Positions 38,690-43,203 of a DNA stretch of 64,000 bases are shown here, one piece after another (the stretch's first letter is position 1; each line of letters starts with the position of its first letter). Under the pieces are notes generated by a model, which had not been told where the DNA came from, ran no database searches, and saw nothing but the letters and a program-made list of their open reading frames with translations. The stretch covers positions 124,001 to 188,000 of the forward strand of contig NZ_WNXY01000001.1 in the NCBI RefSeq assembly GCF_009733815.1, in the 5' to 3' direction. A program made the position numbers and the translations under genes. The DNA comes from Pseudactinotalea suaedae. GTDB taxonomy: Bacteria; Actinomycetota; Actinomycetes; Actinomycetales; Beutenbergiaceae.

Positions 38690-40549
38690 GTGGCAGCCAA
38701 CGAGCACCGGGGCAAGCAGCGGCGAGCGGCGCGGCCGACGCCACCCAGGCCGAGCGCCGCGAAGAAGCAGGTCCGGCACGACAAGCGGCAGAACGTGATC
38801 CTGTCGATCGTGCTCGCGATCTCGGCGGTCTTCGCGGGCCGGCTGGTCTACGTCCAGACCATCGCCGGCCCGGCCCTCGCGGAGACCGCGACCGAGGCGC
38901 GCAGCTTCACGAGCCTGCTCGTGGCCCCGCGCGGGGAGATCCTCGACGCCGGCGGCAACGTGCTCGCCACCTCGGTCTCCACCTACAACCTCATCCTCGA
39001 CCTCGACCTGGTGCCCACCTACGTGCTCAAGGACGACGAGGGCAACGTGATCGGCCGCGGCGCCACGGCGCTCGCCCAGCAGCTCGCGCCGATCCTCGGG
39101 CTCAGCGTCAACGAGCTCGGCGCCCGGCTCGTCGGCGACCCGGGCACCACGCAGGGTCGCAAGTACTTCGTGCTCGCACGTGAGGTCAGCGCCGAGGTCC
39201 GGCAACAGGTCGCAGCGCTCAAGATCCCGGGCTTCTCCGACGAGGCCAACAACACCCGCACCTATCCGAACGGGACCGTGGCGGGGCCGCTGCTCGGCTG
39301 GGTCAACGCCGAGGGCGACGGCACCACGGGCATCGAGTCGGTGTACGGAGGCCTGCTCACCGGCACCGACGGCGAGCAGACCTACGAGCTCGGCGCAGCC
39401 GGTCAGCTGATCCCGACCGGCAGCCGCTCGGAGACCCCCGCGGTGCCGGGGTGCGACATCCACCTCACGATCGACCTCGACATCCAGTACAACGCCGAGA
39501 AGGTCATCACCGAGGCGGTGAACAAGTACGGAGCCGAGTGGGGCGCGGTCGTCGTGATGGACACCGAGACCGGCCGGCTGCTCGCGCTCGCCGACTCCAA
39601 CCCCTACGACCCGGCCGACCCGCCCACGCACCGACTCGGCGTCGACGGCCAGATGCTCTCGCCCGCCCTGCAGGCCTCCTACGAGCCCGGCTCCACGGGC
39701 AAGGTGCTCACGGTGCTGTCCGCGCTCGAGGAGGGCGTGATCACGCCGTCGAGCGTCATCGAGGACCCGTACCGGATGACGATCGACGGGCAGACCTTCC
39801 GCGACCACACCGAGCACCCCGACCAGCTGCTCTACCCGGCGGGCGTGCTGGCCGAGTCCGCGAACACCGGCACGGTCAACATCGGCAACCTGATGAGCGA
39901 CCAGACCCGCTACGAGTACATGCAGCGGATGGGCTGGACCACCAGCCCGGGGCTGAACATGAACGAGTCCAGCGGCCAGCTGCGCCCGCCGCAGGAGTGG
40001 GACGGCCGCACCCGCTTCACCACGATGTTCGGCCAGGGCCTGGCCGTCTCGTTGCTGCAGAACACCGGCGTGTTCAACACGATCGGCAACCAGGGCATGC
40101 ACGTCGACCCGGTGCTCGTCGACGGCTGGACCTGCGACGGCGCCTTCGTGCCGAACGAGACGTCCGACCCGGTCCAGGTGGTCTCGCCCGAGAGCTCGGC
40201 GACGATGATCCGCATGCTCGAGTCCGTCGTGGGCGACGGCGGCACCGGTGAGCGTGCCGAGGTCGAGGGCTACCGGGTCGCCGGCAAGACCGGTACGGCG
40301 CAGACCGCCGACGGCGCGGGCGGCATCACCGCGACGACCGCCTCGTTCGTCGGGGTCGCCCCGGCGGACGATCCGCAGATCACGGTCGGCGTCGTCATCT
40401 ACAAGCCCACCTCCGGCTTCTTCGGTGGCACGATCGCCGCTCCCGTGTTCCACGACGTGGCGGCGTTCACGCTCCCGGATCTCGGGATCGCTCCTTCCGG
40501 GGAGCCCGCGGACCCGTTCCCGCTCGCACCCGAGCAGGACCAGGGCTGA
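38690..40549 (+). CDS. ftsI: Penicillin-binding protein, septal transpeptidase FtsI
   Basis: 619 residues. A basic N-terminus, one membrane anchor at about 36-55, a pedestal domain, then the class B transpeptidase: active site S335-T-G-K338, S390-A-N392 and K533-T-G535. It crosslinks septal peptidoglycan with FtsW. GTG 38690, 7 bp after ftsL. The final 20 residues are Pro/Glu-rich. The next gene has its own predicted promoter 50 bp downstream. Confidence 0.96.
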   Translation: MAANEHRGKQRRAARPTPPRPSAAKKQVRHDKRQNVILSIVLAISAVFAGRLVYVQTIAGPALAETATEARSFTSLLVAPRGEILDAGGNVLATSVSTYNLILDLDLVPTYVLKDDEGNVIGRGATALAQQLAPILGLSVNELGARLVGDPGTTQGRKYFVLAREVSAEVRQQVAALKIPGFSDEANNTRTYPNGTVAGPLLGWVNAEGDGTTGIESVYGGLLTGTDGEQTYELGAAGQLIPTGSRSETPAVPGCDIHLTIDLDIQYNAEKVITEAVNKYGAEWGAVVVMDTETGRLLALADSNPYDPADPPTHRLGVDGQMLSPALQASYEPGSTGKVLTVLSALEEGVITPSSVIEDPYRMTIDGQTFRDHTEHPDQLLYPAGVLAESANTGTVNIGNLMSDQTRYEYMQRMGWTTSPGLNMNESSGQLRPPQEWDGRTRFTTMFGQGLAVSLLQNTGVFNTIGNQGMHVDPVLVDGWTCDGAFVPNETSDPVQVVSPESSATMIRMLESVVGDGGTGERAEVEGYRVAGKTGTAQTADGAGGITATTASFVGVAPADDPQITVGVVIYKPTSGFFGGTIAAPVFHDVAAFTLPDLGIAPSGEPADPFPLAPEQDQG

Positions 40550-40587
40550 CGCCCGTCCACCCTCCCCAGACCTTCACGACGAACGGG

Positions 40588-40593
40588 TAGATT
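40588..40593 (+). promoter_or_regulatory. Probable -10 element of the MurE-like gene
   Basis: TAGATT 7 nt before ATG 40601, giving a leaderless transcript inside the dcw cluster. It could also drive murF to ftsQ. Confidence 0.45.
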
Positions 40594-40600
40594 CGCGCAC

Positions 40601-41788
40601 ATGAGCACCCCGGCCAGCCCTGACGACGTCCGGCGCACCTTCGCCGTCCTCGGCAGCACCGGCAAGGCCACCACCTGCTACCTGCTCGACCACGTCGCTG
40701 CCGCCCTCGGGCGGAGCACCGCGATCTTCAGCACGGTCGAGCTCAAGGTCGGTTCCGAGCGCGCCCCGGTCGAGCGGGACACCCAGCCCGACATCGCCGC
40801 GCTGCTCCGGCGAGCCGACGAGGCCCGTATCGACGACACCATCGTCGAGCTGCGCTGGCACGAGCTGTCCACCGGCGCGGCGCAGGGCCGGCATATCGAT
40901 GTCGCGGCCTTCACGCACCTCGACCCCGCGGTCGAGGGCGATCGCTACGAGGAGCACCTCGCCCAGATCGAGGCGGTCCTGACCGCCGCCGGGCGTGCGC
41001 TCGTCCTCGTCGACGACCAGGCCGGCGTCGAGCTCGCTCGTCGCGTCCCCGGTGCGATCACCGTGGGCAGCCTGCCGCACGACCAGGACGCCGACTGGCA
41101 GATCAGCATCAACGCCGCCCGCGCGGACCACATCGAGTTCACCCTCACGCACCGCACCGGTCGCAGCGTCTCGACCGCCCTGTGGATCCCCACGCGCTTC
41201 TCGGTCGGCTACGCCGCGCTCGCGCTGGCGTCGGTGATGGAGACCGGCGTCCTGGGCAGCACGATCGCGCACGTGCTCCCGCACGGTCTGCGCCCCGTCG
41301 TGCCCGGCCGCATCGAGCGCGTCGCGGACCGCCCCCGGGTCATCGTCGACATCGCGCACAACCCCGCACGGCTCAGCCGCGCGCTGCTGCCGCTGCGCAA
41401 GACCACCAAGGGCAAGCTCATCGTGGTGCTGTCGGCTCGTGCGAGCGACGACCCCGAGACCCGACGCGCGATCGGACGCGCCGCTGCTGCGGCCGCCCAC
41501 TCGATCGTGGTCACCGACGACGACTACGGGATCGACGACGACCCGGCAGCGGTGCGCGCCGACGTGCTCGCCGCCGCCCGCGAGGCCGGCGCCACCAGCC
41601 TGACCGAGGTCTCACCGCGCCGCGCCGCGATCCGCGCCGCGGTGGCGCTGGCGGGCCGTGACGACACCGTGCTGGTGGCGGGGCGCGGTCACCTGACCTC
41701 GATCCTGGTCGCCGGCGAGCGCGAGCACCTCGACGACCGCGAGGAGGTGCGTGCCGGCATCGCCCAGCGGCACGCGGCTGCCGGATGA
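40601..41788 (+). CDS. MurE-like Mur ligase lacking the UDP-substrate domain, degenerate P-loop
   Basis: 395 residues in the place of murE. It begins almost at the ATP-binding domain: G18-S-T-G-K-A-T-T25 aligns with the Mur GTNGKTTT loop but has Ala where the magnesium-binding Thr is expected. FTHLDPAVEGDRYEEHL, LWIPTRFSVGYAALALASV and IVDIAHNPARLSRALL follow the MurE central and C-terminal domains, and VTDDDYGIDDDPAAVRADVL occupies the place of the VTDDNPRSEDP motif, with the DNPR specificity box changed to DDYG. The N-terminal domain of about 90-100 residues that binds UDP-MurNAc-dipeptide is absent. So a normal MurE reaction is doubtful. Stop overlaps murF. Confidence 0.85.
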   Translation: MSTPASPDDVRRTFAVLGSTGKATTCYLLDHVAAALGRSTAIFSTVELKVGSERAPVERDTQPDIAALLRRADEARIDDTIVELRWHELSTGAAQGRHIDVAAFTHLDPAVEGDRYEEHLAQIEAVLTAAGRALVLVDDQAGVELARRVPGAITVGSLPHDQDADWQISINAARADHIEFTLTHRTGRSVSTALWIPTRFSVGYAALALASVMETGVLGSTIAHVLPHGLRPVVPGRIERVADRPRVIVDIAHNPARLSRALLPLRKTTKGKLIVVLSARASDDPETRRAIGRAAAAAAHSIVVTDDDYGIDDDPAAVRADVLAAAREAGATSLTEVSPRRAAIRAAVALAGRDDTVLVAGRGHLTSILVAGEREHLDDREEVRAGIAQRHAAAG

Positions 41789-43203
41789 TCGCACTCACCC
41801 TCGCCGAGGTCGCCACCATCACCGGGGGCGCGCTCGGTGGCCCCGTCACGGCCGCGGACGGCGTCACCGTCACCTCGGTCGCCATCGACTCCCGGGCCGT
41901 CGTGCCGGGCGGTCTGTTCGTCGCGCTCCCCGGTGAGCACGTCGACGGCCACGACTACCTCGAGGCGGCCGCCGCCGCAGGCGCCGCCGCCGCGCTGGTC
42001 TCCCGCGACCTGCCGCAGGCCCCGCTGCCGTACCTGCGGGTCACGGACAGCGCCGCCGCCCTGGCCGACCTGGCCCGCGACGTGCTGAGCCGGTTGCGCG
42101 CGGCGGGCGACGTCGTCGTCGTCGGGATCACCGGCTCGGTCGGCAAGACCACCACGAAAGACCTGCTGGCCGAGCTGCTCAGCCCACTGGGCGGGCTCGT
42201 CGCGCCGGTGGCGTCCTTCAACAACGAGATCGGGCTGCCGCTGACCGTGCTGCGCGCCGACCACGACACCCGCGTGCTGGTCCTGGAGATGGGCGCCGAC
42301 GCCCCCGGGAACCTCACCTTCCTGACCTCGGTCGCGCCGCCCGACATCGCGGTCGAGCTGATCGTCGGCCATGCCCACCTCGGCGGCTTCGGCTCGATCG
42401 AGGGCGTCGCGACGGCGAAGGCCGAGCTGGTGCAGGGTCTCGTCCCGGGTGGTCTGGCCGTCCTCAACGCCGACGACGCTCGCGTGCTCGGCATGGCGCG
42501 CCTCGCCGAGAACGTGCTCACCTTCGGTCGCTCCGAGTCGGCCCAGGTCCGGGCGGTCGACGTCAGCACCGGTCCCGACGGCCACGCCGAGCTCACCCTG
42601 GTCACGGCCCAGGGGCGGCAGCGCGTCCGCCTCGCCCTCACGGGCGACCACCACGTCACGAACGCGCTCGCCGCCGCCGCCGTCGCGCTGCACCTCGGAC
42701 GACCGCTCGAGGAGGTCGCGGCGACGCTGGCGTCCGTAGGACCGAGCAGCCCGCACCGGATGCAGGTGACCGACACCCCGGGAGGCGTCCGTGTCATCGA
42801 CGACGCGTACAACGCCAACCCGACCTCGATGCGGGCCGCGCTGGCCGCGCTGGCGTCGATGACCACGACCGGGCGCCGCGGCGTCGCCGTGATCGGCGAG
42901 ATGCTCGAGCTCGGACCCGAGTCGGCCCGCGAGCACGCCGAGATCGGGCGATACGCGCGCGAGCTGGGCATCGCCGAGGTCGTCGTCGTGGGGGAGGAGG
43001 CGCAACCGGCGCTGGACGAGGTGCTCGCGGGCGGCGGCAGCGCCGTCTACGCCGAGAACGTCGACGAGGCGCGCGCGCTGCTGACGACCCTGCTGCGCCC
43101 CGGCGACGTCGTCCTCGTCAAGGCCTCCAACGGCACCGGCCTGTACCGGCTGAGCGACGCTCTCACCAGCCCTGCCTGGCCTGACCTGGTGGGTGCCGAG
43201 TGA
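41785..43203 (+). CDS. murF: UDP-MurNAc-tripeptide--D-Ala-D-Ala ligase MurF
   Basis: 472 residues. Full three-domain Mur ligase: N-terminal substrate domain ([27 protein letters not shown] in part), P-loop [13 protein letters not shown] at about 113-125, [21 protein letters not shown], the [18 protein letters not shown] region, and [12 protein letters not shown] in the C-terminal domain. Adds D-Ala-D-Ala to the tripeptide precursor in the cytosol. ATG 41785 overlaps the MurE-like stop, and its stop overlaps the mraY GTG. Confidence 0.97.

Follow-up and report, generated by a model that had tools for sequence, protein, structure and literature searches.

A shortened MurE-like protein encoded beside murF in Pseudactinotalea, probably a Mur ligase pseudoenzyme

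In all three Pseudactinotalea genomes examined, a short MurE-like gene lies between ftsI and murF, and one further MurE gene (hereafter MURE2) lies unlinked to it. Our reading, to which we give a probability of about 0.5, is that the short gene encodes a displaced native MurE turned into a constrained pseudoenzyme, kept for binding. The native MurE of the dcw cluster would have become redundant once the lineage carried MURE2; an in-frame internal deletion would have removed the UDP-MurNAc-binding N-terminal domain while sparing the leaderless promoter and the start; the motifs for Mg-ATP and ligation would also have gone; and what is left would have been retained as a pseudoenzyme that binds MurF or a Mur/divisome assembly, perhaps with nucleotide bound. 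Mur ligases are thought to act as a physical assembly, and with an essential enzyme it is difficult to tell structural roles from catalytic ones. If the reading is true, this small genus of soil bacteria offers a natural domain-subtraction experiment, in which an essential cell-wall ligase became a structural part of the Mur machinery: catalysis has apparently moved to the unlinked MurE, and a probably ligase-dead MurE is under selection beside murF. Because the presumed essential MurE could be left alone while the short gene is deleted or mutated, the scaffold question would be directly testable. There is also a caution here, namely that a "murE in the dcw cluster" need not be a working enzyme.

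The short gene and the second MurE

The window (the whole stretch of DNA analysed, 64,000 nt) contains the following arrangement around the short gene.

38690-40549: ftsI, the 5' neighbour of the short murE
40601..41788, + strand: short MurE-like gene (ORF from ATG to TGA; 395 aa, with only the middle and the C-terminal domain of a Mur ligase)
41306..41689, + strand: C-terminal Mur ligase domain (residues 236-363; Pfam PF02875, E 7.4e-18)
41785..41788, + strand: ATGA overlap of the stop of the short ligase and the start of murF, read from the sequence
41785..43203, + strand: murF, the co-translated neighbour and proposed partner (same order in the 2 other genus genomes)

The first-pass annotation had described a 395-residue Mur ligase without the N-terminal domain in the murE slot, and both the reading frame and a Pfam scan agree with it. 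The scan placed Mur_ligase_M (residues 18-210) and Mur_ligase_C above their cut-offs and found no N-terminal Mur_ligase domain in the protein. The nearest NCBIfam models were those of MurE, with scores below their cut-offs (169.5 bits for TIGR01085, whose cut-off is 257.3). The genome (4.54 Mb, 99.99% complete) contains six matches to Mur_ligase_M: the short protein, MurF, MurC, MurD, C11:9477 (presumably FolC) and a full-length MurE on contig C14. The last of these, MURE2, is the MurE that had been predicted to be encoded elsewhere (504 aa; C14:208230-209744 of G000, or 1132-2646 of L001); it scores 508.9 bits against TIGR01085 and has the N, M and C domains of Pfam. No stand-alone N-domain was found in the genome, where the PF01225 matches are MurC, MurF and MURE2 only. 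It is very improbable, then, that the short protein is still a working MurE, with a free-standing N-domain or with none. Its two retained Mur ligase domains would allow this, and according to the accessible text of PMC6113224 the N-domain-less MurT could replace MurE in vitro; against it stand the missing free N-domain, the existence of a complete MurE and the changed catalytic motifs of all three species, described below.

The short protein is 74% and 65% identical to those of the two other genus members, and the 4-nt ATGA overlap with murF is kept in all three. Since the short state is common to the three species, chance and sequencing error are excluded as its source; the latter had been allowed for in the first-pass annotation. 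The candidate of an artefact or frameshift was accordingly rejected, and with three separate assemblies in the same state, two of them matching named public records, we regard the probability of an assembly or sequencing artefact as negligible. When named bacterial genomes were scanned with two exact peptide patterns, a scan that may leave out the window's own record, 42 stretches matched a pattern, and the locus was confirmed only in Pseudactinotalea terrae and Actinotalea caeni, the latter since moved to Pseudactinotalea according to the accessible text of PMC8878594. Three stretches of viral contigs matched a pattern, and none was confirmed as a relative. A truncated or pseudoenzyme MurE of this type was not found in the titles and abstract openings of the literature searched.

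The short protein has one or more matches in each of the 24 family genomes. Gene order was read at nine relatives' loci; all nine have a long MurE frame between ftsI and murF, which in one of them (L044) starts inside the N-domain. In a tenth locus (L049 of G007), the frames of murE, murF, murD and rsmH are broken, probably by poor sequence. No MurE is present between ftsI and murF in G004, where the two genes are about 157 bp apart, or in G151 and G232, where the gap is about 60 bp or less and each genome has five Mur_ligase_M genes. These three genomes carry MURE2, so whatever role the short protein has does not seem to be generally needed.

The MURE2 copies of the two other genus genomes are 82-84% identical to that on C14, the copy in G004 is 67% identical, and those in G151 and G232, which belong to another family, are 69% identical. 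In an order-wide search of 248 genomes, the matches listed included five genomes whose MURE2 is at least 66% identical (our own, G001, G004, G151 and G232), and the other matches listed were at 45% or less; G002 lies outside this sample, and its MURE2 was found in the genus search. In the genome studied here the gene lies roughly 8-11 kb away from purF-purM, and purF-purM was seen within about 12 kb of MURE2 in the three genus members and G004 (L037/L107, L038/L109, L039 and L086), a shared neighbourhood that favours one ancestral MURE2 locus for these four. There was no purF-purM match in the stretches read around MURE2 of the two g66 genomes. A sisterhood of Pseudactinotalea and the genus of G004 is contradicted by a four-gene tree (support 90/92, not starred) and not rejected by the AU test (p 0.157). 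On these results, MURE2 may have arisen by one ancestral gain followed by differential loss, or by repeated gain. All six copies compared have the box EEDHRDTP, which differs from both DDPH and DNPR, and GKGPE in place of GKGHE. One speculative idea is that MURE2 brought a switch of the third residue from Lys to Orn. The peptidoglycan of Pseudactinotalea may contain ornithine; its type was not found in the literature searched.

Catalytic motifs

Four altered motifs can be placed in the window.

40652..40675, + strand: altered P-loop GSTGKATT (GTNGKTTT or GTDGKTTT in active relatives), invariant in the three species, with T to A fixed
40847..40858, + strand: ELRW where EVSSH has its EVSS, invariant in all three species
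41519..41530, + strand: DDYG in place of the DDPH of the family's native MurE, from comparison with relatives
41681..41695, + strand: GRGHL in place of GRGHE, the change of E to L being fixed in all three species

Catalysis by Mur ligases depends on the Thr after the P-loop Lys, the Lys of a loop and the Glu of GKGHE. The Thr or Ser that follows Lys in Walker A is the metal-ligating residue, and the loop Lys is carbamylated and catalytic. The short protein departs from the Walker A form GKT/S, having GKA in all three species; its catalytic-Lys loop (HLDFHG...YFxxK) is partly deleted, with E, S and E in the Lys column, where the alignment is gapped; and GRFNVxNA has become TRFSVGYA. The Glu of EVSSH is retained as E83. 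The residues GSTGKATT, ELRWHEL and DDYG had been quoted correctly in the first-pass annotation, but the box that DDYG replaces is DDPH (DDDPHDEDP) in the true relatives and not DNPR. The changes in the catalytic-lysine loop, in GRFNVxNA and in GRGHE are additional to those noted there.

For a broader comparison, 48 complete MurE sequences (19 family copies, six MURE2 and 23 high-scoring rows from the order) were used as the reference. From the P-loop region on, 67 columns are at least 95% conserved in this set; the short proteins keep 33 of them, share one other residue at 10, are variable at 22 and lack two. The 10 shared changes include the P-loop T to A, SS to RW, the two Asn of FNVxNA and GHE to GHL, and the free variation at the 22 columns fits a partial decay. 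When the columns invariant in 15 family rows of the DDPH type were used instead (n = 152), 75 were kept, 23 fixed otherwise, 50 variable and four deleted. Judged by these residues, the short MurE very probably no longer ligates.

Could the protein, like MurT, have become a different ATP-dependent ligase or an amide-forming subunit able to work without a UDP domain? The region around the P-loop belongs to its most conserved parts, E83 is kept, and MurT of the GatD/MurT system also has no UDP-binding N-domain (accessible text of PMC6113224). However, MurT has GTNGKT and a Mg-binding Glu according to the same text, whereas the short protein has GSTGKA with Ala after the P-loop Lys, a partly deleted Lys loop and no Glu in GKGHE. 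MurT_C (PF08353) gave no match in any of the 24 family genomes, this one included, and the MurT/GatD system was rejected as a candidate on this ground. The GATase_3 matches in the family genomes, being weak and partial, did not point to a particular GatD-like partner. The lost motifs and the absence of MurT_C thus disfavour the "other amide ligation" that had been offered as an alternative, and a new ligase of this kind seems distinctly unlikely.

Promoter, deletion and descent

Two further features lie at the 5' end of the short gene.

40586..40593, + strand: GGTAGATT, a -10-like element 7 nt before the ATG, to all appearance the ancestral leaderless murE promoter
40625..40640, + strand: approximate junction of the presumed in-frame internal deletion, the first codons being joined to RTFAV (a by-eye estimate from codon positions)

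GGTAGATT occurs once in the window, before the short murE. GTAGATT stands directly 5' of the murE start in all 19 relatives' murE loci (nine of which were read for gene order), and in 17 of the 19 it is present as GGTAGATT; the element is 7 nt from the start in each genus member and 6-8 nt from it in the 18 relatives measured. The promoter is therefore ancestral and not special to the dose of the short copy: of the earlier proposal, the leaderless element itself stands and the argument for a dose of its own falls. Counting from the promoter-anchored start puts the P-loop at codon 18 in all three Pseudactinotalea genomes and at codon 120-194 in the 18 relatives, and the frame is open from this start to the P-loop in 18 of 19 relatives' loci, L044 giving no such path. 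These positions indicate that both the promoter and the first codons were inherited from the ancestral gene and that an internal stretch was lost in frame. Set against the nearest genera (g4, g7 and g8), the loss amounts to 102-121 codons; over all 18 relatives it is 102-176. By its position, the deletion took the UDP-binding domain; the UDP-binding role of the Mur ligase N-domain is described in the accessible text of PMC6113224.

In a MurE tree of 51 rows, made by a quick method with SH-aLRT support and with some long branches flagged, the short proteins of the three species group together as a clade (100) that falls within a set including 13 family MurE (100), and the support for the exact sister of the short clade within that set is 91, not starred. 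A grouping with the second MurE was rejected (AU test p 0.0076), so the short gene is not a copy of MURE2. Tree placement and test agree with the MurE descent claimed in the first-pass annotation, and on this sequence evidence the short MurE is a descendant of the native MurE of its slot. It has the same slot, promoter and start as the native dcw MurE (UDP-MurNAc-tripeptide synthetase) of related genera, the same overlap with murF and two of the three domains, and is 46-49% identical to the native copies of genera g2, g4, g7 and g8; unlike them, it has lost the N-domain, the Thr of the P-loop, VSSH, the Lys loop, FNVxNA and the Glu of GKGHE. In short, the protein is by sequence a MurE in descent, and on the features tested it fails as a MurE enzyme; it is probably a Mur ligase pseudoenzyme that arose by domain subtraction.

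Selection and possible role

The stem of the short clade is 1.23 changes per column and its base-to-tip paths are 0.27-0.47, against a stem of 0.31 and paths of 0.27-0.31 for MurF of the same genus in a separate 15-row tree; that is, the stem is four times as long as that of MurF and the stem-to-tip paths are 1.0-1.5 times as long. The ratios dN/dS for the three species pairs, computed from NG86 dN and dS values and rough because synonymous sites are near saturation, are 0.34, 0.55 and 0.43 for the short gene, 0.27, 0.42 and 0.41 for murF, and 0.21, 0.24 and 0.21 for MURE2. Of seven genes compared, the short gene is the loosest in each pair by both amino-acid identity and dN/dS. Its second-position differences (0.137-0.242) are nevertheless far rarer than those at fourfold sites (0.404-0.539), and by these comparisons the short protein is under purifying selection in the three species, weaker than that on its neighbours. 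A burst of change followed by renewed constraint would fit a new role better than steady decay.

These values also bear on the reading that the gene is a relic under weak constraint, retained because murF, which it overlaps, is fed by translation that begins at the leaderless murE start, with the protein itself doing little. The promoter and coupling are ancestral, and the high dN/dS of the short gene is what such a relic would give. Traces of the promoter element were also seen before murF in G004, G151 and G232, all without murE there, and at the ftsI-murF junctions of the last two (L102 and L103) we noted what by eye resembles a 12-codon, GTG-started mini-frame that ends at murF. In these two genomes it looks as if murF still needs translation from the murE start. 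But such a mini-frame would suffice for coupling, as G151 and G232 suggest, and the scarcity of second-position changes and the return to paths near those of MurF after so long a stem also argue against a protein that does little. A neutral simulation, in which bases were redrawn at random (1000 runs), left the frame stop-free in 10.1%, 3.7% and 1.9% of runs at redraw levels of 0.3, 0.45 and 0.6, which alone is weak evidence against a relic. We consider the relic reading rather unlikely.

A non-catalytic role, as had been proposed in the first-pass annotation, remains the best fit to the residues and the constraint. If the short protein is a pseudoenzyme retained for binding, MurF is its most likely partner, in view of the overlapping reading frames and of a precedent for physical association of MurE and MurF, although we hold this step only tentatively, at somewhat short of even odds. 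The precedent is PDB 8f5d, titled "Architecture of the MurE-MurF ligase bacterial cell wall biosynthesis complex", which was matched in both sequence and fold; its entry gives one 803-residue chain deposited as a multifunctional fusion protein, whereas the short ligase is a separate, probably ligase-dead MurE. That the resident MurE was re-selected after the takeover by MURE2, as a scaffold or allosteric subunit of MurF that is peculiar to the genus and co-translated with it, is possible but more doubtful.

From the three sequences AlphaFold2 built a model of moderate quality (pLDDT 68.9, pTM 0.51), which is not good enough for a judgement of the ATP site. Among PDB entries, mycobacterial MurE match it best (E 1.7e-28, TM about 0.6), and the MurE-MurF complex and chains of the plastid RNA polymerase stand further down the list; the list obtained with the sequence profile is similar. 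The plastid chains are PAP11, a MurE-like subunit (matched by sequence in 8w9z and 8r5o, and by fold in 8r6s and 9epc), and by their PDB entries they give an instance of a MurE-like protein in a complex unrelated to cell-wall ligation. Unlike the short protein, PAP11 is from plants, has 768-774 residues in the matched chains and is not encoded beside murF.
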